A program made the translations under genes and the position numbers. Source: Sulfurovum sp. (GTDB lineage Bacteria; Campylobacterota; Campylobacteria; Campylobacterales; Sulfurovaceae). From it: a stretch of 64,000 bases of DNA. The notes beneath the pieces are model-generated. The model had not been told where the DNA came from and made no database searches. It was given only the letters and a program-made list of their open reading frames with translations. Below are positions 6,054 through 64,000 of this stretch, one piece after another. The DNA lies in NCBI GenBank assembly GCA_030949725.1, contig JAUZSE010000025.1, positions 124,001 to 188,000 of the forward strand, written 5' to 3'. How positions within the stretch are numbered: the first letter of the stretch is position 1; each line of letters opens with the position of its first letter.

Positions 6054-7270
6054 TTATTGTGACTCCAACTTTTTTTTCAAAATAATCTTTCCAGCTTCCA
6101 CACCTGGTTGGTCATAAGTGTTTACGTCTATGAGTTCTCCTACCAAAGAGGTCAGTAATTCGTAGTAGAAGATGAGAGAACCTATATTGCATTCATCTAC
6201 TTTTGGGATGCTAATACTGTCCAACGGTATACTTCCTTTTTCTTCTAAGGCTTCTAGGACAGAGTCACACTGCATGTTAATGAGTTTGGAAAAAGAAAGG
6301 GTGTTGAGGCTATCCAACGATTCAAGATGAGGCAAGGTGATATTTGGAATCGTGATATCGTCTTGAAAGTCTTCAATTTTAATGAAAGTAACCGATTTGT
6401 CTCTAGTACCTTCCATAATGAGTTGCAAGAATGAATGTTGGTCTTTAGGTCCAATGAGACCGATAGGCGTGAGACCTACGTTAAATGCAGAGTGACGTTG
6501 GTACTTCCCTAAACTCTCCCCCCATAGTTGCACATACCATTGGCAGAAGTATTTGAGTGTTTCAGAGTAGGCGAAAATACAGTTAATATGGTACTGACCA
6601 TGGTTTTTTGCATAATACACAGCTTTTTTAAGTAACGTCTCTTTTAGATACCCATCATTAAAAAAACTCTCTTTAATGGTTTTTGCACCAGATAAAAGTG
6701 CTTGTATGTCTATGCCACATAAAGCAAGTGGCACTAATCCTACAGTAGAAAGTACTGAAAATCTTCCTCCTACATTTTCTGGCAGATAAAGCACAGAAGC
6801 TTTGATCTCTTTGGCATACTTTTCAAGTGGTGAATTGGGGTCGGTGATAAAAGTATAGGCTGAAGCATCATTTTGAAGAGAGTAAATGTATTTGTAAATC
6901 GAAAAAGTTTCTACGGTATTTCCAGATTTTGAAATCACAAGAAAATGGGTTGTTTTGATGTCAAATTTGGAGAGCAGGGTACTAATATTAATAGGGTCGG
7001 TACTTTCAAAAAAGTAAAGTTTTCTTTTTAAATTTTTGATAGGTTTGATAAACTCGTAGACAGCCTTTGCACCCAAAGAGCTACCACCAATCCCAATCAC
7101 TGCAATCGTTTTAACTTCTTTTGGAATAGAAGTACAATAGTCTATGATGGGAGTAATGTCTTGTTCAGGGAGTGCATAATAACCAATACTTTTTTGTTCT
7201 TCTGTGATAGCTTGAAAAGCTTTTTCTGCATATTCTTATCGGTAGAAGTAAAATAAAGTTTGTTGGTCAT
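6054..7270 (-). CDS. pgi: Glucose-6-phosphate isomerase, frameshifted near its N-terminus
   Basis: About 405 residues when joined. The main part starts at 'VIGIGGSSLGAKAV' and contains 'SKSGNTVET', 'WGESLGKYQ' and the PGI signature 'GPKDQHSFLQL'. The true start is the ATG at 7270, which overlaps the stop of the phosphomutase gene (ATGA). Reading from it gives 'MTNKLYFTSTDK' and then loses frame near 7231-7240, where one base appears to be missing (an A run reading AAGAATATG on the minus strand); adding one A gives 'KKYAEKAFQAITEEQ'. It interconverts glucose-6-phosphate and fructose-6-phosphate, linking glycolysis or gluconeogenesis to the nucleotide-sugar genes around it. Length matches the short epsilonproteobacterial form. 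Confidence 0.9.
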
Positions 7271-8658
7271 GACAAAAGTTTCTTTGCATTTTGGATTAAT
7301 ATATTGACTTTGTTTTCATATTCTTTGGCTAGTACCTCATCTGTAGACTCAAAACGTGTCACGAGAACAGGTGTGGTATTGGAGGCACGTACCAATCCCC
7401 AACCTTTTTCAAAATTGATGCGTACACCGTCTACATCGATGATATTTAGAATTTTTGGGAAATCACTTGGAGGGTTTTTGAGTAATTCTTTTACTTTGTC
7501 GATGATGAGAAATTTCTCTTCTTCTGTAGTTTCCACTTTTATCTCTTCAGTTGAAAAAACTTGAGGCAAGGCATCGATCTCGGCATCGATGTCTATGCCG
7601 TCATAAATGAGTTCTAACATTCGAAGTGTGGCATAAATAGCATCATCATAACCAAAATAACGGTGCTTAAAGAAGATATGACCGCTTACCTCACAAGCTA
7701 AATCTGCACCTGTTTCTTTCATCTTTACTTTGAGATTGGAGTGACCCGTTTTGTACATAATAGCAGTAGCCCCACGACGTTCAAGTTCATCATACATGAC
7801 TTGTGAACACTTTACTTCACCGATGACTATAGGGTTTTTCATCTTCATCGCATAAAGCAGTGCCATTTGGTCACCTTTGATATTATGCTTGTGCGTGAGT
7901 ACTGCGATACGATCAGCATCTCCATCGTAAGCAAAAGCAATGTCACCTTCTTTGGCTAATGCTGCTTTGACATCTACAAGGTTTTCTTCCACCGAAGGGT
8001 CAGGGTGGTGGTTAGGAAAAGTACCATCTGGTTCAAGATAGAGACCGGTATAGTTGAATTTTAAAGCATCAAAAATATCTGTGATGACCGTATCAGCCAC
8101 GCCATTACCTCCATCTATCACAATCTTTAGAGGGAAATTTTTGAGATGTGCAAATTGTTCTACCATATAAGCGATATAAGGTGTTTTGACATCGATGTCT
8201 GTTTTGGTAGTATCATCAGCGATGACTTTATCTTGATTCTCGATGATTTCATCACCCAAAGCATAAATATCAGATCCGAAAAAAGGACTTTTGTCTACAG
8301 TCATTTTAAAACCGTTATATTCTGAAGGATTGTGTGAACCTGTAATCATAATAGATGCATCGGTACTTATTTTATGGAAATCTTTGCCATCAAAATCAAT
8401 ATAGTTTGAAAAATAATTTACAGGAGTAGCGACCATCCCCATGTCTAAGACTTTACATCCTGCGGCATTGAGTCCTGAAGTAAGATAGTCTCTTAGTATA
8501 GGAGAGTGTGAACGTGCATCGTAACCAATCGAGACGACTTTGTCTCCTGCTATTTTTTGACCAAGGAAATAACCTATGAGTTTAACAGACTGTTCATTGA
8601 GCTCTTTCTCGAAGATTCCACGGATATCATACTCTCTAAATATACTTTTTTCAATCAT
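7267..8658 (-). CDS. Phosphomannomutase/phosphoglucomutase (AlgC/ManB type)
   Basis: 463 residues, the expected length for bacterial PMM/PGM. Four-domain alpha-D-phosphohexomutase: 'YDARSHSP' near residue 45, the phosphoserine loop 'ITGSHNPSEYNG' near residues 104-115, the metal-binding loop 'YDGDADRIAV', the sugar-binding 'CEVSGHIFFKHRYFG', and the phosphate-binding 'RASNTTPVLVTRFES' near the C-terminus. It moves phosphate between C6 and C1 of glucose or mannose, giving the glucose-1-phosphate that GalU uses. Its ATG immediately follows the galE stop with no gap, and its stop overlaps the pgi start. Substrate preference cannot be set from sequence. Confidence 0.92.
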   Translation of the reverse strand: MIEKSIFREYDIRGIFEKELNEQSVKLIGYFLGQKIAGDKVVSIGYDARSHSPILRDYLTSGLNAAGCKVLDMGMVATPVNYFSNYIDFDGKDFHKISTDASIMITGSHNPSEYNGFKMTVDKSPFFGSDIYALGDEIIENQDKVIADDTTKTDIDVKTPYIAYMVEQFAHLKNFPLKIVIDGGNGVADTVITDIFDALKFNYTGLYLEPDGTFPNHHPDPSVEENLVDVKAALAKEGDIAFAYDGDADRIAVLTHKHNIKGDQMALLYAMKMKNPIVIGEVKCSQVMYDELERRGATAIMYKTGHSNLKVKMKETGADLACEVSGHIFFKHRYFGYDDAIYATLRMLELIYDGIDIDAEIDALPQVFSTEEIKVETTEEEKFLIIDKVKELLKNPPSDFPKILNIIDVDGVRINFEKGWGLVRASNTTPVLVTRFESTDEVLAKEYENKVNILIQNAKKLLS

Positions 8659-9681
8659 TTATTTTCCTTTATTTTTATACCCATCAGGGTTACGTGACTG
8701 CCATCTCCACGTGTCTTGACACATTTCATCGATGCTTCTTTTTGCTTCCCATCCTAATACTTCTTTCGCATAAGAAGGGTCTGCAAAACATTTTGCTATG
8801 TCTCCCGCTCTTCTTGGGACGATTTTATAAGGGACTTTTTTACCCGATGCTTTTTCAAAAGCTTTGACCATGTCAAGTACAGAATAGCCATTACCCGTAC
8901 CTAAATTAATGGTCATGACTTCAGATAAGTTTTTTATGATTTCTAATGCTTTGACATGTCCATCTGCTAGATCCATAACATGGATATAATCTCTGATACC
9001 CGTACCATCAGGCGTGTCATAGTCTCCTCCAAAAATGCTTAAGCTTTCACGTTTTCCTACCGCTGTCTGTGCGATAAAGGGCATAAGATTGTTCGGGATA
9101 CCATTAGGGTCTTCACCCATAATACCTAAATCATGTGCGCCTACAGGATTAAAGTAGCGAAGCAGAACAATCTTCCAGTCATTATCTGATACATAAAGGT
9201 CTCGTAACATTTCTTCTACAAATAATTTGGTTCGTCCATAAGGATTGGTAGCAAAGAGTGGGAAGCTTTCTACTATAGGTGTGGTGTGGGGATCGCCATA
9301 CACTGTTGCTGAAGAAGAAAAGACAATAGATTTACAGCCATATTCTGCCATCACTTCACAAAGAACGGCTGTTCCATTGACATTGTTATCATAATATTTT
9401 AAGGGATTTTCAACCGATTCACCTACTGCTTTAAGACCTGCAAAGTGTATGACTGCATCAATGTTATGGCTTTTAAATACCTTAGTAAGATCTTCACGAT
9501 TTCGTACATCGCCCTCAAAAGTAGCAATCTTATGACCTACAATCTTCTCAACCCTCTTGATGGCTTCTTTTGAAGCATTACAAAAGTTATCAAAGATGAC
9601 TATGTCATAGCCTGCTTCGATGAGTAAAATGACAGTATGCGAACCAATATAACCCGCACCACCTGTGACCAAAATAGACAT
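8659..9681 (-). CDS. galE: UDP-glucose 4-epimerase
   Basis: 340 residues. Extended SDR: 'MSILVTGGAGYIGSHT' binds NAD, 'SSSATVYGD' gives the catalytic serine region and 'NPYGRTK' supplies the YxxxK pair. The C-terminal substrate part has 'GTGIRDYIHVMDLADGH' and 'NLGTGNGYSVLDMV', and near the end 'DIAKCFADPSYAKEVLGW'. It interconverts UDP-glucose and UDP-galactose (possibly also the N-acetyl forms). It is the first gene of the dense sugar operon running to the left edge. Only 18 nt separate it from the outer-membrane protein gene upstream, so the promoter may be further up. Confidence 0.95.
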   Translation of the reverse strand: MSILVTGGAGYIGSHTVILLIEAGYDIVIFDNFCNASKEAIKRVEKIVGHKIATFEGDVRNREDLTKVFKSHNIDAVIHFAGLKAVGESVENPLKYYDNNVNGTAVLCEVMAEYGCKSIVFSSSATVYGDPHTTPIVESFPLFATNPYGRTKLFVEEMLRDLYVSDNDWKIVLLRYFNPVGAHDLGIMGEDPNGIPNNLMPFIAQTAVGKRESLSIFGGDYDTPDGTGIRDYIHVMDLADGHVKALEIIKNLSEVMTINLGTGNGYSVLDMVKAFEKASGKKVPYKIVPRRAGDIAKCFADPSYAKEVLGWEAKRSIDEMCQDTWRWQSRNPDGYKNKGK

Positions 9682-9699
9682 TACAATTCTCCTATACTA

Positions 9700-10263: not shown

Positions 10264-10327
10264 AGTTGACCTTTAATATTTATTCATATAATCATATCAC
10301 AGTTTTCTTCAATAAGGCTAGGATATT

Positions 10328-10549
10328 TTAATCTGCGGGTTTATAATTTTTTTCTTTATAGGCTTTTTTCTTAGCCTGCATCATAGCAGCATCTTGCAAG
10401 TCTTCTTCATTGTCATGATGCACCGCATCTATAAACTTGCTTTGGTCATCAAATTGACCTGTTCTCACAGCCCAAATTAATGCAAATAACCCTATGGCAC
10501 CTAAAAGTGTTGAGATACCTATCATTAAAACTACTATACTTTCACTCAT
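10328..10549 (-). CDS. ccoS: cbb3-type cytochrome oxidase assembly protein CcoS
   Basis: 73 residues with one N-terminal membrane helix ('IVVLMIGISTLLGAIGLFALIWAVRTGQFDD'-type pattern, residues about 5-34). The W-x-V/x-x-G-Q-F/Y-D-D ending of the helix is the CcoS signature. The lysine-rich tail is cytoplasmic. CcoS is needed to insert haem and copper cofactors into the cbb3 oxidase. The start overlaps the stop of the copper ATPase gene (ATGA), the common ccoI-ccoS arrangement. The oxidase structural genes (ccoNOQP) are not in this window. Confidence 0.9.
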   Translation of the reverse strand: MSESIVVLMIGISTLLGAIGLFALIWAVRTGQFDDQSKFIDAVHHDNEEDLQDAAMMQAKKKAYKEKNYKPAD

Positions 10550-17233: not shown

Positions 17234-18179
17234 CTTCTTTGACTTGAGTCATTTTAGCTTGTGCTATGGCTCTAGCCTTCTTTGCTCCTTGTGCTAAGAT
17301 ATCATTTACCTCATCCATATGGTTGAGGTAATAGGCACGTTTTTCTCTTGCTTCACCTAACTCCTCCCAAATAAGTTCTTTGAGATATTTTTTGAAATGA
17401 CCATATCCTTCTTTCCCACTTTTATAGCGTGTCTGTAATTCCATTTTTTCTGAATCATTTAAAAAGAGGGATGCCAATGCATAAATATTGTCGCCCTCGT
17501 ATTCTAATGGATCGCCTAAAGGTGTAGAAGAAGAGATAATTTTATTACATCTTTTTTGTAAAGGTTTTTCATCCATAAAGAGGTCGATGGCATTGTCATA
17601 GCTTTTAGACATTTTTTGTCCATCAATACCAGGAATAGTAGCAACATCTTCTTGGACGATATGTTCGGGGAGTGTAAATATATCTCCATATTCATTGTTA
17701 AATTTTATGGCTATATCTCTTGTCATTTCGACATGCTGTATCTGGTCTTTTCCTACGGGTACTTTTTGTGTATCTAGCATCAGTATGTCTGCTGCCATCA
17801 GTACAGGGTAGGAAAATAATGCATGATTGGCAGAGATGCCTTTGGCTACCTTGTCTTTGTAACTATGCGCACGTTCGAGTAGACCCATAGGGGTAAACTT
17901 TGAGAGTATCCAATAGAGTTCAAGTACTTCAGGCATATCACTTTGTACCCAAAATGTTGTTTTCTCAGGATTTAGTCCTAGTGAAAGGTAGTCAACAGCA
18001 GCATCAATCGTATATTGTTTGAGAGTGGCTGCATCTTTTGAAGTGGTAAGTGAGTGGTAATTGGCTATAAAAGTAAAAAGCTCATGCTCTTCTTGAAGTT
18101 CAATCATCGGCTTCATAGCACCAAAATAGTTTCCTATATGTAGTTTTCCTGAAGCTTGTATTCCTGTAAGTACACGCAT
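17217..18179 (-). CDS. trpS: Tryptophanyl-tRNA synthetase
   Basis: 320 residues, class I synthetase of the usual bacterial size. The HIGH-type motif is 'SGKLHIGNYFGAMK' near the N-terminus, and KMSKS is present as 'GQKMSKSYDNAIDLF'. 'YPVLMAADILMLDTQKVPVGKDQIQHVEM' contains the tryptophan and ATP pocket residues (given here for recognition; parts vary). It charges tRNA-Trp in the cytoplasm. It sits 52 nt downstream of der on the same strand. Confidence 0.96.
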   Translation of the reverse strand: MRVLTGIQASGKLHIGNYFGAMKPMIELQEEHELFTFIANYHSLTTSKDAATLKQYTIDAAVDYLSLGLNPEKTTFWVQSDMPEVLELYWILSKFTPMGLLERAHSYKDKVAKGISANHALFSYPVLMAADILMLDTQKVPVGKDQIQHVEMTRDIAIKFNNEYGDIFTLPEHIVQEDVATIPGIDGQKMSKSYDNAIDLFMDEKPLQKRCNKIISSSTPLGDPLEYEGDNIYALASLFLNDSEKMELQTRYKSGKEGYGHFKKYLKELIWEELGEAREKRAYYLNHMDEVNDILAQGAKKARAIAQAKMTQVKEAIGLP

Positions 18180-18231: not shown

Positions 18232-19641
18232 CTATTCTTCATCATCATAGCGTTCACCGCGTTTTCGTGCAACGATATCTAATGGTACCCCTTCAAAGTC
18301 ATATTTTTCTCTGAAAAAGTTTGCAAGATAACGTTTGTAAGTAAAGTGCAGAAAATCTGGTCTGTTGGTGATGAGTGCAATTTTGGGTGGTTTGGTCTCG
18401 TATTGGGTTGCAAACTTTATGTTGACTACTACACCATGATGAGAAGGGACATGGTGTCTTCTAATGGCTGCACGTAAAGTGTCATTTAAGTCAGATGTAG
18501 AGATACGTCTTTTATAGCGTCCATATATATCAACAATCTGGCCCAATATCTTATTGACACGTAAACCTGTTTTAGCTGAGATAGTTATGAATGGTGCATA
18601 ATGCAAAAATTTAAGTTCATCGCGAATATCATCGACTACTTCTTCATAGCTTCTGTCTTCTTTGATGTCCCATTTATTCAGTACGATAAGACAGGCTAGT
18701 TTATGCTCTTCTATAAGTCCTGCAACCCTTTCATCTAGTTCTGAGATTTGCTTGGTTGAATCAAGTATGAGTAATACTAAGTTTGCTTTTTTGAGAAGCT
18801 CAATAGTTCTTGTGAGTGCGAACTTTTCGATACCTATGATTTTGGACCGTTTTCTGATGCCAGCTGTATCTATAAATGTAACTTCATGCCCATCATGTTC
18901 TATCATTTCATCTATAGGGTCTATGGTGGTTCATGCTACATCTGATACCACAGAACGTTCTTCACCCAACAATGCGTTAAGCAAAGAGGATTTCCCAGTA
19001 TTGACACGCCCGATGATTGCTACACTTATCTTATTGTCAACTTCATCTTCTTTTACAGTGTTTATTTCACGTACGATTTGTTCAAAAGGATCGATTTCTT
19101 TATCTTCTTCAAGGACAAGACCTTCTTCCTCTTTGGGTGCGGGGATATGTTCTTCTAACCATGCATAAAAATCATTAAAATAACGGTTATGACTCACCGA
19201 CATAGGGAAAGTGGCATCTGCACCAAATTCTAAAAAGTCCCAGTAACGTTCTTCTTCTTTGTCATTGTCTATTTTATTGACGACAAGAGCCAAAGGTTTC
19301 CCTTGGGTTTGTAGTTTGTAGAAGAGTTCTCTGTCTTCTTCACTTGGCAGTGTTTTCCCATCCACCATATAGACAATGATATCTGCTTCTTGGGCTGCTC
19401 TTAGTGAAAATTCTGCTACTTTACTAAAGAGTTCAGAAGAATAATCTATACCACCCGTATCAAGAACCTCAAATTCTCGATTTTCAGAAATGGTTACAAT
19501 ACGTCTTTTGACATCTCTTGTGGTACCTGATCTATCTGATGTGATAGCATCTCTTTGTCTGGCTAAACGGTTGAAGAGAGAACTCTTCCCTACATTTGGT
19601 CGTCCAACAATGGCTACTTTTTTTAGTGTTTGTTCTTGCAT
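18232..19641 (-). CDS. der: Ribosome-assembly GTPase Der (EngA), interrupted by one in-frame TGA
   Basis: About 469 residues if read through. Two tandem GTPase domains: G1 'GRPNVGKSSLFNRL' near residue 12 with 'SGTTRD' and 'DTGG', and a second G1 'GRVNTGKSSLLNALLGEE' near residue 213, then 'DTAGIRKRSK', 'LNKWD' and a C-terminal KH-like domain ending in a basic tail. Codon 237 (18931-18933 on the plus strand, tca) reads TGA where the family has the Gly of the 'GTT' switch; the frame does not change on either side. A single G-to-T change explains it. Der is essential in most bacteria and TGA is used as a normal stop here, so a base error is most likely. The start was chosen at 'MQEQTLKKVAIVG' rather than an upstream extension. 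Confidence 0.9.
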
Positions 19642-39622: not shown

Positions 39623-39626
39623 GTTT

Positions 39627-39700
39627 GGGGTAACCCGGCTGTCTAACTGGAGACCCGTGGTTTTCTGTCCTTACTTCGCAGTAAGTTTAGCCTTTTCACT
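39627..39700 (-). ncRNA. GEMM-I (cyclic di-GMP class I type) riboswitch in the adhesin operon leader
   Basis: Read on the minus strand. GGCUAAAC is followed by a hairpin CUUACU-GCGA-AGUAAG with a GNRA tetraloop (39685-39670), then GGACAGAAAACC, then the conserved CCACGGGUCU, a short GUCU/AGAC hairpin (loop CCAGUU), and the hallmark ACAGCCGGGUUACC (39642-39629). Order, tetraloop and the two conserved blocks match the GEMM family; the 'GGACGCAAAGCC' block is changed to GGACAGAAAACC. The leader ends about 70 nt before the adhesin ATG. Ligand c-di-GMP is most likely from family knowledge; cGAMP variants exist and are not excluded. Confidence 0.78.
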
Positions 39701-54753: not shown

Positions 54754-56292
54754 ATGAAACAAGTACCTATTTTAGTCTTAGACTTTGGTTCACAATATAC
54801 ACAACTTATAGCAAGAAAATTAAGAGAATCTGGTGTTTACACGGAAGTAGTGCCTTATAGAGAAAGTCTTGAAGCTATAAAGGCAAGGAATCCACAGGGT
54901 ATTATACTCTCAGGTGGCCCTGCATCTGTTTATGATAAAGATGCTTATAAACCAGATGAAGGTATCTGGGATTTAGGGTTGCCTGTACTTGGTATTTGTT
55001 ATGGTATGCAGATTATTACACAACACTTTGGTGGGTCTGTTGTCCCTGCGATTCATCATGAATACGGAAAAGCAAAACTGAAGATAGAAAATGACTCCAG
55101 TATCTTTAAAGATGTAAATGATGAGAGCATTGTATGGATGAGCCATGGAGACAAAGCAGAAAGTATCCCTAGCGGTTTTGAAGTGATTGGTACGTCTGAA
55201 AACTCTCCTTATGCAGCCATAGCAGATGAGACACGTAAAGTGTATGCCTTTCAATTTCACCCTGAAGTACACCACACTGTAGAGGGTACTGTGATGTTGA
55301 AAAATTTTGCAAAATATATTTGTGGCTGTGAGAGTACATGGAATATGGGTAGCTTTGCTAAAGAGAAAATAGAAGGTATTCGTGTACAAGTAGGAGATAA
55401 AAAAGTGCTTTGTGGTGTAAGTGGAGGTGTTGATTCTTCTGTGGTTGCTGCAATGCTGAATGAGGCACTGCCTAAAGAACAACTCATCTGTGTCTTTGTA
55501 GATCAAGGGCTTTTACGTAAGAATGAAGTAGAAGATGTACAAGTGATGTTTAAAATGTTAGATATGCCACTGATCACCATAGATGCCAAAAAAGAATTTA
55601 TGGCTGTACTTGAAGGTGTAAGTGATCCTGAGATAAAACGTAAAGCAATTGGCGAAAAATTCATCGAAATTTTTGACATTGAAGCGAAGAAACATACAGA
55701 TGTTGCTTTTTTGGCACAAGGCACACTGTACACAGATGTCATCGAATCAGTTTCCGTCAAAGGACCGTCTAAGACGATTAAATCACATCATAATGTAGGT
55801 GGATTACCAGATTGGATGACCTTTGAGCTAGTAGAGCCTTTAAGAGAGATCTTCAAAGATGAGGTAAGAAAACTAGGACTAGAACTAGGACTGCCTAAAG
55901 ACATGATAGGCAGACATCCTTTCCCTGGACCTGGACTTGCTATACGTACTATGGGCGCAGTGACGGAAGAAGGTTTACACCTTATACGAGAGTCAGATGC
56001 CATTATGCAAGAAGAGCTTAGAGCGACAGGGTATTATGACAAAGTATGGCAAGCATTTACTGTACTTCTCAACGTACAGTCTGTAGGTGTCATGGGTGAT
56101 AACCGAACCTATGAAAATACAGTATGTATAAGAATGGTAGAATCTGTAGATGGGATGACTGCTACTTTTGCACATGTACCTCATGAGATACTTGAGGGTA
56201 TGAGCAGAAGAATTATCAATGAAATAGATGGTATAAACCGTGTTGTTTACGATATAAGCTCTAAGCCTCCTGCAACAATAGAGTGGGAATAA
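54754..56292 (+). CDS. guaA: GMP synthase (glutamine-hydrolysing)
   Basis: 512 residues. Class I amidotransferase: '[16 protein letters not shown]', '[10 protein letters not shown]' and the catalytic Cys in 'VLGICYGMQ', His-Glu in 'QFHPEV'. ATP-pyrophosphatase: '[17 protein letters not shown]' P-loop and '[10 protein letters not shown]'. The C-terminal dimerisation domain ends '[11 protein letters not shown]', the usual GuaA end. It converts XMP to GMP. A TATAAT-like box lies about 35 nt upstream. Confidence 0.97.
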
Positions 56293-56295
56293 AAT

Positions 56296-56577
56296 ATGTG
56301 TATTCCCGCTTATTATAAGTATCTTTTTTTAGCTATTGTTGTTGGAACTTTAGTGATCCTTGCAGTGTTTTATGACAGACTTTTTTATTTTGTACCTATA
56401 TTTGTTTTTGCTATTGTCTGGAGTCGTATACGTTGCCCTAAATGTAATGAACCCATACTTAAAGACAAGAAAGGCTGGTATATCTTTACTATGAGAAGTA
56501 CTTGTCGCCATTGTGGACAAGACACCCTTTTGTGCGAAGTCGAATCTGATGAGGTAACGAGTCAGCGTCTAAAATAA
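56296..56577 (+). CDS. Membrane protein with C-terminal zinc ribbon
   Basis: 93 residues. Two membrane helices (about 8-25 and 28-43) are followed by a CxxC pair 'RCPKCNEPIL' and 'TCRHCGQDTLLC', a treble-clef or rubredoxin-like ribbon. Not recognised by family name. It starts 3 nt after guaA. Confidence 0.65.
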   Translation: MCIPAYYKYLFLAIVVGTLVILAVFYDRLFYFVPIFVFAIVWSRIRCPKCNEPILKDKKGWYIFTMRSTCRHCGQDTLLCEVESDEVTSQRLK

Positions 56578-56591
56578 AAGAAAGGTTTAAT

Positions 56592-57698
56592 ATGTGTATC
56601 AATATGAAAAAAATCTTTACTTTTTTACTACTTTTTACGATACTTTTACATAGTGGTGGAAGTATTTCTAAAGAAGAAGAGATAAAAGATACGATTGTGG
56701 TTCATGGCATGGTTTTTCATGGACGTGTGATGAATTTAGGTCCAGAGAAACTCTCTTTCAAACTCCTTTATAGTGAGGGGATTAATCACATAGCCTACAA
56801 AGATATAGAATCAATCTCCACCAAATATAATTATCATATCTCATTCAAACGTATGGACATAGAAGGACGCATTGTAGGAATAGAAAACAATACTTATCTG
56901 AAAGTTATGGAAGGTGAAAATGAGAGAACTATTAAAATCACTGATATAGATAATTTTGTCATGGCAGTGAGTGATGATGCATCGTTTGAAAATAGGATAA
57001 GAAATAAATTTCCTTTTAGTAAAGGAAATATCAATGTTGGTTTTGAGATAGAGAGTGGTGGTAATCAAAAGAATGAGTTAGATATCTTATTAAATTTGAA
57101 ATATAAAAAAGCAGAACATGAATTTAAACTGTATGTAGATTATCAATATGACACAACAAAAGTAGAAGGTACGGGCGATGTATTGAACAAAGATGAACTT
57201 GTAGGTATCTTAATGTATAAAAATAATTTTAAAAATGATCAGTTTTATTATACTATTTTTGCAGCCGATTATGATCGTCCAAGACATATATTGAACCGCT
57301 GGATCCCTTCCATTGGGTACGGACATAGATTGCAGTTTTCCAAAAATACATGGTTAGAACCTTCTGTTGGTTTGGCTTATGTTGCAACAACCTATACAGA
57401 GGAAATCTATCCTGATAAAGATTTTGCTGCGGCAGCACTTAATTTGGCGGGAAAATACCGTCTCAATGATATACCTTACATCAATAGTCTGATAATAGAT
57501 GGATTTTTGATGTATTATCCAAGCCTTGAAGACTTAGGTGTAGACTGGGTTCTGAGATCAAACGTGACTTTTACCATACCTCTTTTTGATTTTTTCTCTG
57601 TTAAACTATCTGTGAATCAAAGAAATGATAGCAATCCAGACCCAAGTGTAGGGAACAATAAAACAACAACCAACTTATTGTTTGGTTTGGATTTTTAA
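56592..57698 (+). CDS. Outer-membrane DUF481 (YdiY-like) protein
   Basis: 368 residues. The signal peptide is 'KKIFTFLLLFTILLHSGG' and cleavage is likely near residue 27. An N-terminal region with short beta repeats ('VVHGMVFHGRVMNLGPEKLSFKLLY', 'ISFKRMDIEGRIVGIENNTYLKV') is followed by a beta-barrel of 10-12 strands from about residue 150 ('INVGFEIESGGNQKN', 'WIPSIGYGHRLQF', 'PSVGLAYVATTY', 'VTFTIPLFDFFSVKLSV'), ending 'TTTNLLFGLDF'. DUF481 proteins are outer-membrane and salt-inducible in some bacteria; the exact role is not known. Ends just before a terminator. Confidence 0.75.
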   Translation: MCINMKKIFTFLLLFTILLHSGGSISKEEEIKDTIVVHGMVFHGRVMNLGPEKLSFKLLYSEGINHIAYKDIESISTKYNYHISFKRMDIEGRIVGIENNTYLKVMEGENERTIKITDIDNFVMAVSDDASFENRIRNKFPFSKGNINVGFEIESGGNQKNELDILLNLKYKKAEHEFKLYVDYQYDTTKVEGTGDVLNKDELVGILMYKNNFKNDQFYYTIFAADYDRPRHILNRWIPSIGYGHRLQFSKNTWLEPSVGLAYVATTYTEEIYPDKDFAAAALNLAGKYRLNDIPYINSLIIDGFLMYYPSLEDLGVDWVLRSNVTFTIPLFDFFSVKLSVNQRNDSNPDPSVGNNKTTTNLLFGLDF

Positions 57699-57715
57699 AT
57701 ATGTAGAGATTTTCT

Positions 57716-57742
57716 ATAGTTTAGTCACTATCACTAAACTAT
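57716..57742 (+). terminator. Rho-independent terminator after the DUF481 gene
   Basis: ATAGTTTAGT (57716-57725) pairs perfectly with ACTAAACTAT (57733-57742) around a 7-nt loop, followed by CTTTC. It is placed 17 nt after the stop and separates the upstream operon from htpG. Confidence 0.7.
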
Positions 57743-57755
57743 CTTTCGGAAAAAC

Positions 57756-57784
57756 TTGTAATATTTTCCAAAATAGACTATAAT
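57756..57784 (+). promoter_or_regulatory. Sigma-70-type promoter for htpG
   Basis: -35 TTGTAA (57756-57761) and -10 TATAAT (57779-57784) with a 17-nt spacer. It lies 35 nt upstream of the htpG start, after the preceding terminator. No CIRCE-like inverted repeat was seen here. Confidence 0.65.
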
Positions 57785-57819
57785 CCCACAAAAATAATAC
57801 TATATATAGGAGAAATACA

Positions 57820-59683
57820 ATGGCAAAACATCAGTTTCAAACAGAAATAGGGCAACTACTCAAGCTTATGACACACTCTCTTTATTCAAATAAAGAGATC
57901 TTTATACGTGAGCTTGTATCCAATTCAAGTGACGCACTTGATAAATTTTCTTACCTTTCTTTAACGGATGAAAGTTTCAAAAATGAGGATTGGTCTGGAA
58001 AAGTATTTATAAAACTTGACAAAGAAGACAATTCTATCACTATTGGAGACAATGGTATAGGGATGAATGAAGCAGATCTTATGGATCATTTGGGGACTAT
58101 CGCCAAGTCTGGTACGAAAGCATTTGTGGAGAACCTTACGGGAGATGCAGCAAAAGATTCTAACCTTATCGGTCAGTTTGGTGTTGGTTTTTATTCTGTA
58201 TTTATGGTGGCTGAGAGAGTTGATGTTATTTCTAAAAAAGCTGGGTGAAGAACAAGCGTATATGTTTTCTACAGATGGAACAGGAGAGTATGAAGTAAAA
58301 CCTGTGACAAAAGAAGCACATGGTACGATTATGTACATTAAGCTTAAAGATGATGAAAAAGAATTTTTAGAAAAAGAGCGTGTACAAACGGTAGTCAAAA
58401 AATATTCTAATCATATTGCCTACCCAATTATGTTAAATTACACTGAAGAAGTTACAGAGGGTGAGGGTGATGATAAAACCACTAAAATGGAAAATAAATC
58501 AGAACAGATCAATGCAGCTACTGCACTTTGGACACTCTCAAAATCTGAACTTAAAAAAGAGGATTATGTAGAGTTTTATCAAAGCATCGGGCATGACAGT
58601 GAAGATCCACTCACTTACTTGCATAACAGAGTAGAAGGTTCACTAGAGTTTACAACGCTATTTTATATCCCTAAAAAAGCACCTATGGATATGTATAGAC
58701 CAGAGTATACACCTGGTGTAAAACTGTATGTAAAACGTGTCTTTATTACAGATGACAGTAAAGAATTATTACCATCATATTTGCGTTTTGTAAAAGGAAT
58801 CATGGATTCAGAAGACTTACCTCTGAATGTAAGTCGTGAGTTACTTCAAGACAATAAAGTCTTGGCAAATATGAAACAACATTCAGTCAAAAAGATCCTC
58901 CAATCAATCAAAAAACTGAAAGATGAAGATGAAACTACCTTTATCTCTCAATACAACAGAATGATGAAAGAGGGTGTGTACACAGACCATGTCAATAAAG
59001 ACCTGTTACTTGATATAGTCAAATACAAGTCTTCAACTGAAGAGGGTTTAGTAGGTTTTGAATCGTATGTAAGCCGTGGAAATTCTGAGAAAAAAGAGAT
59101 TTATTATATCACTGGAGAAGATGAGAAGGTACTTAGAAACTCACCTTTACTTGAAGCCTACAATCAAGCAAACATAGAAGTACTGATTATGGATGACAAA
59201 GAGGTTGATAGCATCGTTACGCCAATGATAGGTACATATAAAGAATGGGCTTTAAAAGACATTACTACTATAGATGCACCAGATTCCAAAACGAAGGAAG
59301 AGAAAGAAGAAGTAGCCAAAGAATTTAAAACTTTGACAGATAAAATCAAAGAAGTTTTAGGTGAAGAAGTAAAAGAAGTAAAAACATCTACAAGACTGAC
59401 TTCAAGTCCGTCATGTGTACTTAAAGACCCTAATGACCCTATGGCTGCGATGGCACAAATGTTTGCACAAATGGGTGAAGCGATGCCAGAAACTCCACTA
59501 ATTTTGGAGATAAATCCTGAGCATGAGATGGTCAAAAAATTAGATGCCCTAGAAGATGATACACTCTTCAATGATGTGGCATGGGTACTACTTGATTCTG
59601 CAAAACTTTCAGAAGGTATTGACCCTAAAGACAAAGGTGCATTTGCTTTACGTATAGCAAATATAGCGACAAAAGCACTTTAG
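57820..59683 (+). CDS. htpG: Molecular chaperone HtpG (Hsp90), frameshifted
   Basis: About 620 residues joined. N-terminal GHKL ATPase: '[31 protein letters not shown]' pattern, 'GDNGIGM' and '[16 protein letters not shown]' in the first frame. The middle and C-terminal domains continue in the next frame from 'ISKKAGEEQAY' through '[10 protein letters not shown]', '[11 protein letters not shown]' and the end '[11 protein letters not shown]'. The frames meet at GGG (58243-58245): removing one G joins GCT-GGT-GAA. An AGGAG site lies upstream. The gene is 1864 nt as sequenced and would be 1863 without the extra base. Confidence 0.92.
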
Positions 59684-59686
59684 GCT

Positions 59687-60337
59687 ATGTCAATCCCTTT
59701 AGAAGAACTACTTGTTCTTGCACTCCTTCTTTTGGGGGTGGTAGGGGTGTATTATGCACTTAAACTGCATTATGTCTTTGCCTTTGGTCTGGTACAAAAG
59801 ACTGCTATCTCTGAAGAGAAAAAACAAAAAATTGAGAAAATTAAAAGCTATGTTTTTACTTTTTTGAAAGTTTTGTTGGCTGTAGGTCTTGTGAGTATGT
59901 TTGTCTTTGGTGCAAAAGTGCTTATGGATGGGTTGAGTCTTAAAACCATAGTTATTGATTTATGGCAGATGATACCAGAAGGGTTTTGGCTCTCTTTATT
60001 TTGGACACTGATTCGCATTGCATTACTTATACTAGTGGTACGCTATATATTGAAGAAGATTTATATTTTTTTAGAGAGAGAACAAGAAAAAACTATCTCC
60101 AAAAAACGCTATAATACCCAAAATGTTAGGCTTGTCTATCTAAGAATACATAATACGATCAAGTATACCTTTGTATTGGGTGTTATCTATCGTATTGTAC
60201 ATTTCTTTCCTTTTTTGTTAGAGGTAAGTTATGTTTTTCTTCTCGCATTGATACTCTTTTTTATCGTTGCACTAGGCATTACGTTAAAGGAGGTTATTCT
60301 TATGAAGGCTTCTCAAAGATCTATAATAAGGAAATAA
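59687..60337 (+). CDS. Inner-membrane protein of unknown function
   Basis: 216 residues, not recognised. It has about five hydrophobic segments ('ELLVLALLLLGVVGVYYAL', 'YVFTFLKVLLAVGLVSMFVFGA', 'FWLSLFWTLIRIALLILVVRYIL', 'IKYTFVLGVIYRIVHFF', 'YVFLLALILFFIVALGITL') with basic loops between. It follows htpG by 3 nt and abuts the CDF gene, so it is in the same transcript as both. No domain that hints at function. Confidence 0.6.
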   Translation: MSIPLEELLVLALLLLGVVGVYYALKLHYVFAFGLVQKTAISEEKKQKIEKIKSYVFTFLKVLLAVGLVSMFVFGAKVLMDGLSLKTIVIDLWQMIPEGFWLSLFWTLIRIALLILVVRYILKKIYIFLEREQEKTISKKRYNTQNVRLVYLRIHNTIKYTFVLGVIYRIVHFFPFLLEVSYVFLLALILFFIVALGITLKEVILMKASQRSIIRK

Positions 60338-60338
60338 T

Positions 60339-61256
60339 ATGTCAGCACAAAAACGCGCAACCTTAGTCTCTAGTACCGTTGCTTCTATTTTAGTATTGGT
60401 GAAGCTTGTACTGGGTATTGCTAGTGGCTCTGTAGCGGTATTGGCATCGGCTATTGACTCACTGTTAGATATGTTGGTATCTATCTTTAACTTTTTTGCT
60501 ATTAAGAAATCTGAAGAAGATCCAGATGAATCGTATCAGTATGGTAAAGGTAAGATACAAGCAATAGCAGCAGTGATAGAAGGTACTATTATCAGTATAT
60601 CAGGGATATATATTATCTATGTAGGGGCGAAAAAGCTTATTGAAGCTTCGGTCACTACATTGCTTACGCCATCTATCATTGCGATGAGTATATCTATAGT
60701 CATTACCTACTTCTTGGTACAGTATTTACTGAAAATTGCTAAAGAAACAGACAATCTAGTCATTAAGGCAGATGCCTTACACTACAAAACAGACCTTTGG
60801 TCAAATGTTGCAGTTTTAATAGCATTGGGCTTGGTGTATTTGACGGGATTAGATTGGATAGATGCACTTTTTGGTATAGGTATCGGGATTTATATTATCT
60901 ATTCTGCTTATGAAATCATTGTTGAGGGGATAGAGATACTGCTTGATCGTGCATTGAGAGGAGAGATCGTTTCGAGTATTGGAGAGATTATTTCTAAGCA
61001 TCCTGAGGTAACCTCTTACCATTGGCTTCGTACACGTACAGATGGTGATATTAATTATGTAGAGTTTCATATGGTGTTACGCCCCAATATGCCTTTGCTC
61101 GAAGCGCATCGTATTGCCGATGAAGTCGAAGACAAGATAAGGCTTCTTGCAAGTAAAAAACGCTGGGTGATTACACCCCATTTTGATCCTTATGATGATG
61201 AGCAGGTAAATGAAGTCATGCTCAATGGTAAAAGTTTGATGAAAGCAAGACAGTAA
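60339..61256 (+). CDS. Cation diffusion facilitator family transporter (FieF/MamB-like)
   Basis: 305 residues. Six membrane helices; metal-site motifs 'LASAIDSLLDML' in TM2 (DxxxD) and 'LHYKTDLWSN' in TM5 (HxxxD), which fits zinc or iron. 'YGKGKIQAIAA' follows TM2 as in FieF. The C-terminal cytoplasmic domain has 'VTSYHWLRTRTDGDINYVEFHMVL' and 'HRIADEVEDKI'. It moves divalent metal out of the cytoplasm using the proton gradient. Lies between the unknown membrane gene and hemD. Confidence 0.88.
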   Translation: MSAQKRATLVSSTVASILVLVKLVLGIASGSVAVLASAIDSLLDMLVSIFNFFAIKKSEEDPDESYQYGKGKIQAIAAVIEGTIISISGIYIIYVGAKKLIEASVTTLLTPSIIAMSISIVITYFLVQYLLKIAKETDNLVIKADALHYKTDLWSNVAVLIALGLVYLTGLDWIDALFGIGIGIYIIYSAYEIIVEGIEILLDRALRGEIVSSIGEIISKHPEVTSYHWLRTRTDGDINYVEFHMVLRPNMPLLEAHRIADEVEDKIRLLASKKRWVITPHFDPYDDEQVNEVMLNGKSLMKARQ

Positions 61257-61263
61257 TACACTT

Positions 61264-61918
61264 ATGATTTATCTGCTCTCTCCTAATGCAAAAGAGGGAT
61301 GCTTACATCTACCTATGATAGTATTTTCTATAGTCAAACAGAACTTGACATTTGAGGGCTATGAACTGTTAATGTTTACTTCAAAACAGGCAGTTATTAG
61401 TGCTGAAAGACTTAATCCAAAATGGAAAGATATCCCTTGCCTAGCCATCGGTTCTGCTACGGCGAAACAGATAGAAACACTAGGTGGAACGGTAGCGTAT
61501 CAACCTAAGTCATTTTATGGGGAAGCATTAAATCAAGATATAGTAACAAAGTTTAAAGAGAAGAAAATTCTATATTTACGTCCTAAGCAAGTATCTTTCG
61601 ACTCTAAAGGTTTTTTTAGAAAAAGAAGGCATTAAACTTGATGAAAAAATCATCTATGAGACATCTTGTATAGAGTATAGCAATGAAGATAAGCCTGATA
61701 AAAATGCCATTATTATCTTCACTTCACCCTCAACGATACATTGTTTTTTGAAGAATTTTGAATGGGATGAGAGTTATGTAGCTGTAGTCATAGGAGAAGC
61801 CACAAAAAAACATTTGCCCTCTTATGCACGCTGTGTTGTGGCAGATGTCCCACTTATTGATGCTTGTATTGAAAAAGCGAAAGATTTAGTTAAAATAGAA
61901 TACCATTTTGGAAAATAA
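61264..61918 (+). CDS. hemD: Uroporphyrinogen-III synthase, frameshifted
   Basis: About 217 residues joined. The first frame has 'YLLSPNAKEGCLHLPM', 'LMFTSKQAVISAER', 'PCLAIGSATAKQIETLGG' and 'ILYLRPKQVS'. The second frame continues 'LEKEGIKLDEKIIYETSC', then 'IIIFTSPSTIHCFLKNF' and 'AVVIGEATKKHLP'. Frames meet at a run of seven T (61611-61617); six T restores 'SKGFLEKEG'. The enzyme closes the tetrapyrrole ring in haem synthesis. It is the last core gene before the accessory segment. Confidence 0.85.
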
Positions 61919-61958
61919 AAAAACACCTCAATTACAATGTACAAAAATATGTTATGTT

Positions 61959-62201
61959 TTAAGCAACATTTTTCATAGAAAGTTCAAGCATACTTTCTAT
62001 GTTTAAATGATAATCAATAGATTCCCATTCAATACCAGTATTCATGCAAATAAGTTTATAATCTTTTAACTCCGAGAGAGTAGCTTTTTTTAATGGCTCA
62101 TACCATTCTATAGGTGTTGATATAATTCTATTATCTTCAAGTTTTACATGTAAGTATTCATCGTCAAAATGAACTTCTGTACCTTTAATTAAACCATTCA
62201 T
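61959..62201 (-). CDS. DUF2442 family protein
   Basis: 80 residues. The pattern 'VHFDDEYLHVKLEDNRIISTPIEWYEPLKKAT' region, then 'GIEWESIDYHLNIESML', is the DUF2442 signature (W-x-x-L/I-D-x-D/H-L-x-I-E). Usually found next to a DUF4160 gene, as here (1-nt gap). The pair is often listed among candidate toxin-antitoxin modules; no activity is known to me. It is the last gene before hemD, and no attC-like site follows it. Confidence 0.82.
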   Translation of the reverse strand: MNGLIKGTEVHFDDEYLHVKLEDNRIISTPIEWYEPLKKATLSELKDYKLICMNTGIEWESIDYHLNIESMLELSMKNVA

Positions 62202-62202
62202 T

Positions 62203-62412
62203 TCAAATCCTTATAAAGTTAATTTGATTTTCTTTGATGATTGTTAGTGCTAATTTAAAATCTTTAGGTTTTAAGTAGTTTTGAACTACTTTAAGATTGT
62301 CTAATTCAACTTTAGCAAAACCATCACTTTTCATAATATGAATATGTTTTGGTTCATGCTCGTTAGCATAGAAGAAAAACTTAAAACCATTTTTATTTAG
62401 TAAAGTTGGCAA
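62203..62412 (-). CDS. DUF4160 family protein
   Basis: 69 residues. 'FKFFFYANEHEPKHIHIMKSDGFAKVEL' (split here for reading: 'FYANEHEPKHIHI', 'GFAKVELDN') is the core DUF4160 pattern, with the paired histidines of 'KHIHI'. Partner of the DUF2442 gene. The first gene of a small cassette lying immediately beyond the attC-like site at 62485-62552. Confidence 0.83.
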   Translation of the reverse strand: MPTLLNKNGFKFFFYANEHEPKHIHIMKSDGFAKVELDNLKVVQNYLKPKDFKLALTIIKENQINFIRI

Positions 62413-62484
62413 ATTCTAATCCTCATCTAAGATATTATATCTAAAATTTAATTTATTGAGATTTTTATAGAAATTTAAGATTGG

Positions 62485-62552
62485 ACATAACGACTGAATA
62501 GAGCGAATAAGTCGCCGCTAGGTAATTTATTAGCTACTCTGTTTTGTTATCT
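62485..62552 (-). other. attC-like integron recombination site 1
   Basis: 68 bp. In cassette orientation (minus strand) it opens AGATAACAAAACAGAGTAGC and ends AGTCGTTATGT, with an imperfect palindrome between (CTAATAAA / GAATAAGT arms around a GGCGAC spacer). The outer AAC and GTT are the conserved attC cores. Shares length and about 55 of 68 bases with site 2. Folded strands have unpaired and mismatched bases, as attC sites do. Confidence 0.75.
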
Positions 62553-62748
62553 CATTCCTATAGCAACCTTCAAAGTCATACTCGTCAAAAACTGCTTCTT
62601 GTACACTATATGGTGATTCATTGTAATTTCTTTTATCTTTTTGATCTAAAGAAATAGCAATCACAACTCTTGTACCAATATCGGTACATCGCCATTTTCC
62701 AGTATTCGTATAAAATTCTTCACCTATTTTAAAATCTTGATATTTCAA
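62530..62748 (-). CDS. Cassette-borne hypothetical protein with WxCTDIGTR motif
   Basis: 72 residues. The segment 'GKWRCTDIGTRVVIAISLD' and the later 'SVQEAVFDEYDFEGC' are recognisable in a widespread small protein of unknown function that I associate with cassette arrays. Its last seven codons (EITKQSS) and stop lie inside the attC-like site, a known feature of integron cassettes. It lies 2 nt after the next gene upstream. Confidence 0.75.
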   Translation of the reverse strand: MKYQDFKIGEEFYTNTGKWRCTDIGTRVVIAISLDQKDKRNYNESPYSVQEAVFDEYDFEGCYRNEITKQSS

Positions 62749-62750
62749 AT

Positions 62751-62969
62751 TTAATCCCTATGATGTAAATAGTAAATATTGACTTCTATAATTGTATAGT
62801 TAAATAGTATCAAAAAAAGCTCTAATTTTGGTGAATGATCAGCTTTGTATCTATCCCAATTAATTTTTCCATCAAAAATAGAAAGACCATCTGAAAACTC
62901 TCTTAACTTATGAAAAATAGTAACCTCAAAGCCATAATTAGTTGTTAGCTTCCCACCGACTGTATTCAT
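62751..62969 (-). CDS. Small hypothetical protein
   Basis: 72 residues, not recognised. Mostly polar at the N-terminus ('VGGKLTTNYGFEVTIFHKL'), and the C-terminal third is hydrophobic ('LELFLILFNYTIIEVNIYYL'). It starts 10 nt after the HigB-HigA-type ORF and is followed by another small gene after 2 nt. All three lie in one inter-attC interval. Confidence 0.5.
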   Translation of the reverse strand: MNTVGGKLTTNYGFEVTIFHKLREFSDGLSIFDGKINWDRYKADHSPKLELFLILFNYTIIEVNIYYLHHRD

Positions 62970-62979
62970 AATGACACTC

Positions 62980-63603
62980 TTATATCAATTGTATTTTCAA
63001 CTTTTTACCCATAATATGAGCGAAAGCTTGAAGTGTTGAGAGTCTAATGTCTTGTGCATGATTTTCTATTCTTGATATAGCAGATTTTTGAGTATGCATA
63101 GCAAGGGCAACATCTTCTTGTGTTAAGCCTGTCTCTTTTCTAGCAAGTTTTAACATTTCGCCAATTTTGAACTCTTGGTATCCATCATCAAAATTTAAAG
63201 CAAACTCAGTATCACTCTTTTTTCTTTTAGCAATATATTTTTTTAAATCACTCATGTTCTTCTCCTCGTGAAAGATATTCATTTTTCTTTGCTCGGCTAA
63301 AGTAATTTCAGATTTTGGAACTTTTTGGTCTTTCTTTTTGAAGCCATTTGTCAAGACAACAAATGTGCTTTTATATTCAAAACCTAAAAGTCTAAAATTA
63401 TTTTTACCAATTTGAGCTCTAACTTCTATAATCCCATCAGTATTACTAAGTCTTTTATAGAACTTAGTAGAAACTTCTTCCATCTCTTCAATCAAACTTA
63501 GAACCCAAGTGACTTTTTGAGCTTCTTTTGATGACAATGAATCAAGAAAATCTTCAGTAGGACTTTTCCTTGATGGTGTTTTGTAAAATCTGATTTTCTT
63601 CAT
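62980..63603 (-). CDS. HigB-type toxin fused in frame to HigA-type HTH antitoxin
   Basis: 207 residues in one frame. Residues 1-115 are a Gp49/HigB-like RelE-fold toxin: '[20 protein letters not shown]', '[27 protein letters not shown]' region and '[18 protein letters not shown]'. Residues 117-207 are a Cro/C1-type HTH: '[20 protein letters not shown]', '[12 protein letters not shown]' and '[14 protein letters not shown]'. The junction Met117 (63255) is preceded by a strong ribosome site, so a free antitoxin could be made from the same mRNA. Usually these are two genes. A lost stop or indel at the junction is possible. Confidence 0.8.
63255..63267 (-). promoter_or_regulatory. Internal ribosome binding site for the antitoxin part
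   Basis: GAGGAG (63267-63262) is followed 6 nt later by ATGAGTGA, whose ATG is codon 117 of the fused toxin-antitoxin ORF. It is the best Shine-Dalgarno match in this segment. It supports internal initiation of the HTH protein. Confidence 0.65.
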
Positions 63604-63651
63604 GAGGATATATTAACATAAATGTGAACTTTTAGCAAGGTGTATTTTTCG

Positions 63652-63719
63652 AGATAACGACTGAAGATAGCCAATAAGTCGCCGTGAGGCTACTTATTGG
63701 ATACTCTGCTTTGTTACCT
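63652..63719 (-). other. attC-like integron recombination site 2
   Basis: 68 bp. In cassette orientation it opens AGGTAACAAAGCAGAGTATC and ends AGTCGTTATCT, with palindromic arms CCAATAAGT and ACTTATTGG around AGCCTCACGGCG. Spaced 1.1 kb from site 1, in the same orientation. A gene stop lies 6 nt beyond its far end, the expected position for a cassette's attC. Confidence 0.78.
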
Positions 63720-63724
63720 TTCAA

Positions 63725-64000
63725 CTAGCTGTTACTGCTAGGTATATTCTTACTTTTACAATATTCTTCAACTTCACTATCTTCAGTTAGATAGCTATCA
63801 CAAAACTCAATCAATTCTTTTTGTGACAAATCAATATATTTTTCATCTGCAGTTAGTATTTTTTCTATATTAAAAATAAATTTTTCAAAATCTATATTAA
63901 TCTTAGATAGCTTATCTATCGTTTTAAAATCGAGTTCTTTGTATCTTGATTGAAATAAAATTTTACTTTCAAATGGATTTGCATTTAATTCAATTATTCC
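63725..64000 (-). CDS. Cassette-borne hypothetical protein (5' end missing)
   Basis: 91 residues open to the right edge, hand-translated. It is Lys/Glu/Ile-rich with helical character ('IDKLSKINIDFEKFIFNIEK', 'LSQKELIEFCDSYLTEDSE') and ends 'SKNIPSSNS'. Not recognised. The stop lies directly before attC-like site 2, so it is the gene of the next cassette. Confidence 0.6.
   Translation of the reverse strand, partial: GIIELNANPFESKILFQSRYKELDFKTIDKLSKINIDFEKFIFNIEKILTADEKYIDLSQKELIEFCDSYLTEDSEVEEYCKSKNIPSSNS

Follow-up and report, generated by a model that had tools for sequence, protein, structure and literature searches.

Probable distal end of an integron cassette array on the chromosome of a Sulfurovum-like member of the Campylobacterota, and a possible gene-less cassette with a conserved fold

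The stretch analyzed here (the window) is 64,000 nucleotides of a Sulfurovum sp. genome (assembly GCA_030949725.1, a 25-contig draft that is 69.6% complete), taken from contig JAUZSE010000025.1 (hereafter C25; the window is C25:124001-188000), which has 194,129 bases and runs 6,129 bases beyond the window's right edge. Near that edge the host gene hemD gives way to small minus-strand open reading frames (ORFs), some of them toxin-antitoxin-like, among which stand two imperfect palindromes, A and B (Table 1). Together with the rest of C25, followed here as locus L015 (C25:183500-194129; window position = L015 position + 59499), and with a second contig, C18, that carries pieces of an integron integrase gene (intI), they almost certainly mark where a chromosomal array of integron cassettes ends distally in a Sulfurovum-like member of the Campylobacterota. 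Every group of minus-strand ORFs would then make up a cassette together with its attC. In the mechanism established for integrons, the bottom strand of attC folds into a hairpin that IntI recombines at the G^TT crossover, and cassettes are excised, or placed at attI beside intI.

A direct-repeat search of positions 55000-64000 returned the A/B pair as its first family (72 nt at 81% identity, aligned as 62481-62552 and 63648-63719 with a spacing of 1167), and two instances of the spaced pattern TAACGACTGAA-N-AATAAGTCGCCG are present in the 64 kb, where 100 dinucleotide shuffles give an expectation of 0.00. The two 68-bp repeats on which the original prediction was founded thus exist where it placed them, and they do lie at the 3' ends of minus-strand genes, A overlapping the end of the ORF at 62530-62748 and B following the ORF at 63725-(64000). 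For an attC model, intI relatives were collected from named genomes, with the C-terminal piece of the C18 intI, which is an open frame, as query; the best 80 of 172 were used, which are labelled Sulfurovum, Sulfurimonas, Sulfurospirillum, Nitratifractor or, more broadly, Campylobacterales, Campylobacteraceae, Helicobacteraceae, Sulfurimonadaceae or Epsilonproteobacteria, with two labelled only "bacterium". A hand-made scanner gave 52 plus-strand and 53 minus-strand candidates in L015-L017 and the 80 relatives, versus 39 on each strand when the sequences of these 80 were reversed; being poorly specific as an attC test, it was used for seed choice alone, and 12 of the 13 printed seeds were aligned (L080:3696 was omitted for no special reason). 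The 12 relatives' sites fold with RNAalifold into the attC layout, namely an R''/R' helix, an unpaired spacer, an L''/L' helix and a stem, with 17 pairs, eight of which show two-sided compensatory change. The covariance model built from them (R1) includes no sequence of the present genome; two of the 19 pairs of its structure as typed are out of register and were kept so.

On the minus strand, R1 matches site A at 62486-62552 with 51.2 bits (E 6.3e-9 over 165 kb, 6.7e-8 over the whole genome) and site B at 63653-63719 with 51.6 bits (E 5.3e-9 and 5.7e-8, respectively), site B scoring only 17 bits on the plus strand; by their fit to R1, both sites have the pairing of R'' with R' and of L'' with L' as well as an unpaired spacer. 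The bottom strand of site B folds at a dG of -12.6, as low as none of 200 shuffles (z -5.3). A whole-genome search with R1, in which 150 of 1315 candidates were scored, listed 12 matches at an E of 10 or less, which all fall in the C25 array, in the C18 array or at one solo site on contig C15, and BLAST of site B against its own genome returned A, B, the C15 site and four short, chance-like matches (E 0.1-1.3). A repeat scattered genome-wide and unlinked to genes, which the original prediction had named as its undoing, is therefore not what is seen, and by these sequence comparisons the identification of the two repeats as integron attC sites is confirmed.

Beyond the window, on the same strand as A and B, R1 detects sites at L015:5217-5285 (75.7 bits), 9628-9697 (69.2 bits) and 10297-10368 (34.6 bits). 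The cassettes on L015 encode a DUF1643 protein, a DUF3995 protein and an AraC-GyrI-like regulator matching Cass2 (PF14526), a family named as integron-associated, found in one C25 cassette. Because C25 stops within the open frame of a cassette, the proximal part of the array is unseen. An integrase to the right of position 64000, one of the two readings offered by the original prediction, may thus lie beyond the contig: TIGR02249 (the integron integrase profile) has no match up to the end of C25, and the intI that was found is on C18. The solo attC-like site on C15 (L018:10898-10964, R1 36.7 bits) was not counted as an array, because a group II intron (L018:11035-15873; RF01999, RF00029 and a maturase piece) stands where its R' should be, an arrangement that resembles the habit of IIC-attC introns as described in the available part of PMC4424553. 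IS66-like ORFs similar to the C25 insertion sequence described below also occur, by eye, within this intron.

The integrase gene lies on C18 in three frames (L016:13882-14957, minus strand), its pieces covering positions 1-58, 60-163 and 162-313 of TIGR02249 at 60, 120 and 211 bits, the largest scoring 211 bits versus 92 for the best non-integron model. Readable in these pieces are the residues R, H-x-x-R, H and Y and the stretch KYPNAKYETKWQFLFP, which we take to be those of IntI, the stretch presumably being specific to it. The genome has seven TIGR02249 matches, four of which, on contig C3, are weaker and Xer-like. The C18 array begins divergent from intI, with R1 sites at L016:16854-16917 (28.9 bits), 17750-17816 (54.2 bits) and 18814-18949 (32.7 bits) and at L017:1469-1534 (57.2 bits), and one more attC, recognised by eye, cut by an IS3-type transposase gene. 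The sequence upstream of intI is similar to that of 39 relatives' loci, and in 21 of these the similarity stops at L016 15109-15113 (query 269-273), at ...ATAAATAGTT; three extend to query 282-288, some 10-15 bases further, and the rest stop earlier. We take this position, judged from the sequence, as the attI crossover, ending at GTT. A similar motif, sought 600-900 bases from the intI match, was found in 41 of the 80 relatives, 33 times at a distance of 754-787 (range 682-807), and 39 of these have at least 45 readable bases beyond it. The intI gene directly adjoins an mltG/YceG gene. At about position 4625 of locus L023, away from intI, AATAAATAGTT is followed by a seeming degenerate copy of the hairpin of the gene-less element considered below, possibly a second, decayed attI.

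The R1 scores, the further same-strand sites, and the intI pieces and attI in the assembly thus bear out the proposal that a cassette array with attC sites ends here in the chromosome of a member of the Campylobacterota, and we infer that the C25 array would have been built by the C18 integrase in a system that may be active now or was so recently. The following points weigh against this reading. The attC calls rest on the purpose-built R1 and not on the attC model of IntegronFinder; site A is unexceptional by folding energy (bottom-strand dG -5.5, 54 of 200 shuffles at least as low), which accordingly failed as a test of this site. On C25, one further site is weak (L015:5962-6016, R1 18.4 bits, E 0.37), and another, attC E (L015 ~6940-8820), is recognised by eye only and is divided by an IS66 copy (L015:6990-8718, PF03050), which sits in its apical part with an 8-bp duplication, CTTTTAAG, at the ends. 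No TIGR02249 match is found on C25 up to its end 6,129 bases past the window, and in the C18 gene, split as it is, no single piece reaches the TIGR02249 cut-off of 265 bits; since the assembled intI spans three frames, we make no claim that it is active at present.

Several of these observations would suit a cluster of attC sites lacking integron integrases (CALIN), that is, a relic no longer tied to a working integrase, which we regard as a real possibility for the C25 stretch, somewhat short of even: C25 has no intI to the contig end, the assembled C18 gene is in three frames, the IS66 copy with its target duplication splits attC E, and the last module holds an attC remnant only. The rule for a CALIN is at least two attCs less than 4 kb apart with no intI nearby (PMC9668308); held against it, A and B are spaced by 1.17 kb, and C25 ends 6.1 kb beyond the window with no intI to that end. 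As described in the available part of PMC10295459, the CALINs of Sulfurovum sp. NBC37-1 and Sulfurimonas autotrophica are likewise attC clusters without adjacent intI in the same broad group, a likeness judged from their description, whereas the present assembly has intI pieces and attI elsewhere and a cut contig. Against a relic stand the end of C25 inside a cassette, which leaves the proximal part out of sight, and four genomes of the same genus (G219, G225, G285 and G388) that carry intI over the cut-off without stops. Moreover, two host genes of the window are similarly affected: htpG (Hsp90; 57820-59683, plus strand) is broken over two frames as assembled, and of hemD only the ORF at 61264-61635 matches PF02602 (E 2.8e-12, profile positions 15-128 of 231), the profile search of its second ORF (61748-61918) being without a match. 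The split htpG and half-length hemD suggest indel errors of the draft genome, or real decay, so the breaks in intI may be assembly errors as well. The two arrays and the C18 integrase pieces resemble a sedentary chromosomal integron: the pieces are of TIGR02249 type and divergent from the C18 array, attI ends at GTT, small genes have attC sites at their 3' ends, and some cassettes are toxin-antitoxin-like. They differ from one in that intI as assembled occupies three frames and does not share a contig with the window's array.

The frequency of such systems was estimated in 397 genomes drawn evenly from Campylobacterota, with 14 control genomes besides. R1 matches 97 of the 397, a figure that may be low, with 12 candidates scored per genome under stricter filters; some R1 training sites may themselves come from these genomes. 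As an integron marker, TIGR02249 at E <= 0.001 is uninformative, matching 390 of the 397 genomes and all 14 controls; therefore only matches over its curated cut-off were counted, and these occur in 34 of the 397. By comparison of the lists by eye, R1 matches 32 of the 34 intI genomes (all but G356 and G218) versus 65 of the 363 others. The supposition that chromosomal integrons are few in this phylum was consequently wrong, as published reports also indicate: integrons in Campylobacterota are listed in the part of PMC8618304 available to us, and Table 1 of PMC10295459, likewise seen in part, gives two CALINs for Sulfurovum sp. NBC37-1 and an In0 with a CALIN for Sulfurimonas autotrophica, while the 11 taxon-specific attC models named in the available portion of PMC8352920 include none for Campylobacterota. 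Integrons are not rare in Campylobacterota, and the attC array of the window is ordinary for its group.

Both the C25 and the C18 arrays contain, directly after an attC, a GC-rich unit of about 155 bp without a gene (Table 1). BLAST finds it in 14 of the 397 genomes; a covariance model built from 21 copies (R2) finds it in 30 genomes and 13 of 68 genera at E <= 0.001, and in 21 genomes and nine genera over 110 bits (counted by eye), and by list comparison 28 of the 30 genomes also match R1 (all but G199 and G358). Its boundaries were examined in 36 of the 53 R2 matches in the loci analysed, after 10 same-record repeats and seven matches that were cut or below 112 bits had been dropped. Fourteen copies start at attI (AATAAATA|GTT or close) and 20 at CGTT, which alone is no proof of a full attC upstream, R1 sites doing so end there in L016, L015 and L071; L121 starts at an attI variant recognised by eye, and L130 is unassigned. 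All 36 end at CCGTT. With IntI-type crossovers bounding both sides in nearly all copies examined, the element behaves as a cassette without a gene. In L016 no plus-strand ORF of at least 50 amino acids overlaps it (ORFs below 50 amino acids were not tested), a 69-amino-acid minus-strand ORF (L016:17649-17858) runs partly into it, and its length changes among copies are not in steps of three. Rfam holds no match over gathering (the best, E 0.85 at 15.7 bits, is far below); there is no match in plasmids, and none to the core pattern in viral contigs (phages and other phyla were not searched). Nor is such a conserved element apparent in the titles and abstract openings of the literature matches listed, most subscription papers being outside their scope. 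It seems to be an ORF-less cassette not described before, ORF-less cassettes as such being known, and its function is one that we infer.

The alignment of the 21 copies folds at -52 kcal/mol into a GTT...AAC hairpin followed by a long outer helix around two arms, with 49 pairs; for 23 of these, one or more copies carry changes in both partners. Paired cells make up 95.0% versus 84.3 +/- 0.6 in shuffles, and cells with two-sided change number 120 versus 40.6 +/- 5.0, neither value being reached by any of 500 shuffles, statistics that ignore the kinship of the copies; further pair types number 31, lower than in all 500 shuffles (37.2). Sliding the partners by 1-3 columns lowers pairing to 39-46%. 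In all 21 copies the DNA fold of the bottom strand is more stable than that of the top strand, by 7.7-17.5 kcal/mol. Imperfect pairs read on the top strand are A-C in 30 cells of 14 columns versus G-T in 10 cells of one column, which may be a misaligned pair; in a model-fitted alignment of 27 copies less than 90% alike, A-C takes 42 cells in 22 columns versus 16 cells in seven columns for G-T. An A-C cell of the top strand corresponds to a G-T pair on the bottom strand, so it seems to be the bottom strand whose ability to fold is maintained, and wobble pairs and energies appear to favour this strand, the one that IntI recombines. Taken by itself, the 3' half of the element (AACAAG...CCGTT) forms a hairpin like that of an attC; by eye, the 5' half looks like an inverted, loop-shortened partner of this 3' half. 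Most likely, by analogy with attC, the element is recognised via its folded bottom strand. That analogy is weakened by the canonical attCs, which show no clear wobble bias (18 G-T versus 25 A-C over 45 rows including four opposite-strand matches), the wobble method itself being suggestive only and unvalidated on a known bottom-strand site.

We tentatively propose, at close to but below an even chance, that a class of gene-less cassette is widespread in the integrons of Campylobacterota and amounts in essence to a single recombination unit of folded DNA, in which a canonical attC-like 3' half is joined to a short inverted 5' half headed by GTT-hairpin-AAC, with selection acting on the single-stranded bottom strand; it would be hyper-recombinogenic or regulatory, would bear no cargo, and would stand first in the array in about one-quarter to one-third of the attI junctions seen. 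Among the 39 attI junctions readable in relatives, a count that contig ends at repeats may bias, the element is first in nine; in four others (L033, L070, L073 and L077) the first unit is of other sequence and shares the GTT-hairpin-AACGG head, which suggests a wider superfamily of the cassette. Enrichment at the first position is not claimed, the nine (13 with the looser look-alikes) of 39 junctions being set against six copies over 50 bits that follow attC-type sites in these loci, for which R1 gives 41 attCs on the minus strand (counted by eye). First cassettes without an ORF numbered one of 42 and one of five in marine and oral metagenomes, as cited in the available part of PMC6557892.

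The fold might serve RNA instead, the element encoding a regulatory RNA (sense or antisense) or carrying a promoter, which we judge rather unlikely. Promoters or regulatory RNAs have been described in ORF-less cassettes (PMC6557892, PMC11014356, PMC8876359), the conserved unpaired TGAACA and AACAAG would suit an RNA too, and an antisense transcript would give the same bottom-strand wobble bias. A sense RNA is disfavoured by the excess of A-C over G-T cells on the top strand in both alignments, and an RNA in general by the coincidence of the boundaries with IntI crossovers and by the absence of an Rfam match. Still more doubtful to us is a selfish palindromic insertion put at att sites by another recombinase, with covariation arising by quasipalindrome correction (template switching) and not by selection, to which the near-perfect outer helix (99.0% of cells paired), the inverted relation of the two halves and the common descent of the copies, which also raises covariation counts, would lend themselves; yet the R''-like box AACAAG stays constant as its partner changes, and in nearly all copies inspected the two ends agree with IntI crossovers. 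As for the repeats A and B, imperfect palindromes at gene ends could look alike in transcription terminators or transposon ends, an explanation largely refuted, and very improbable, given the strand dependence of the site B score, the conserved R''/R', unpaired spacers and GTT crossover, and the association with intI and attI.

The folded unit proposed here is worth comparing with ORF-less cassettes reported in Treponema (PMC6557892), in Vibrionaceae (PMC11014356) and in Xanthomonas (a small RNA cassette cited in PMC6557892), as far as the available parts of these papers describe them. Like them, it has its own recombination site and no gene; unlike them, it keeps one conserved fold across the genera found with R2, has a bottom-strand bias, stands first in nine of the 39 attI junctions, and measures only about 155 bp in all, versus 491-666 bp for the tested Vibrionaceae cassettes (PMC11014356). 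With the OTH-22-1 motif, proposed as attC-like structured DNA in the available part of PMC8632094, it shares conserved structured DNA with RYYYAAC, a likeness judged from the description of that motif.

The remaining features of the window's array end are given in Table 1. A HigB-like toxin and a helix-turn-helix antitoxin domain, found in a single frame in the cassette between A and B, are usually encoded by two genes. The terminal module, which also matches NF048015 (DhiT) at E 3.2e-5, under its cut-off, has no complete attC and is followed by hemD; the score of its possible attC remnant was reached by none of 1000 shuffles (maximum 15.5) and by none of 1000 random 75-mers of the window (maximum 14.5). 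Elsewhere in the window, positions 39625-39700 (minus strand) match a c-di-GMP-I-GGC riboswitch at 60.1 bits versus a gathering threshold of 59.

Table 1. Array-end features in the window and the two copies of the gene-less cassette (window positions unless a locus is named)
Feature	Position	Strand	Remarks
hemD (uroporphyrinogen-III synthase), host gene adjoining array end	61264..61918	+	first frame stops halfway as assembled
Possible attC remnant	61939..61954	-	16 nt identical to 3' arm of C18 attC (site K); local score 16
Terminal module, DUF4160 (DhiT-like) and DUF2442 ORFs, toxin-antitoxin-like pair	61959..62412	-	PF13711 and PF10387 above cut-off
attC site A (distal, last complete site)	62485..62552	-	R'' TAAC 62546-62549; R' crossover GTT 62489-62491
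Gene cassette between A and B crossovers, ~1.17 kb	62489..63658	-	crossover positions read from sequence
72-aa orphan ORF, end overlapping attC A	62530..62748	-	no Pfam/NCBIfam match
72-aa orphan ORF in A-B cassette	62751..62969	-	no Pfam/NCBIfam match
207-aa ORF, Gp49/HigB-like and helix-turn-helix (HigA-like) domains in one frame, toxin-antitoxin-like	62980..63603	-	PF05973 E 1.5e-14; PF01381 E 4.4e-9
attC site B	63652..63719	-	R'' TAAC 63713-63716; R' crossover GTT 63656-63658
3' part of next cassette's ORF (114 aa in full, beyond window)	63725..64000	-	no Pfam/NCBIfam match
Gene-less cassette copy, C25	L015:10148-10306	-	97% alike to C18 copy
Gene-less cassette copy, C18	L016:17807-17965	+	97% alike to C25 copy

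The attC sites of the window chiefly add a genome and a count, namely that about one-quarter of the sampled Campylobacterota genomes carry this attC type. The gene-less element, if the proposal is true, would be a case in which evolution preserves how one strand of DNA folds, as can be read from covariation and wobble bias, and the purpose of cargo-free cassettes would become directly testable with a unit of about 155 bp found at attI.

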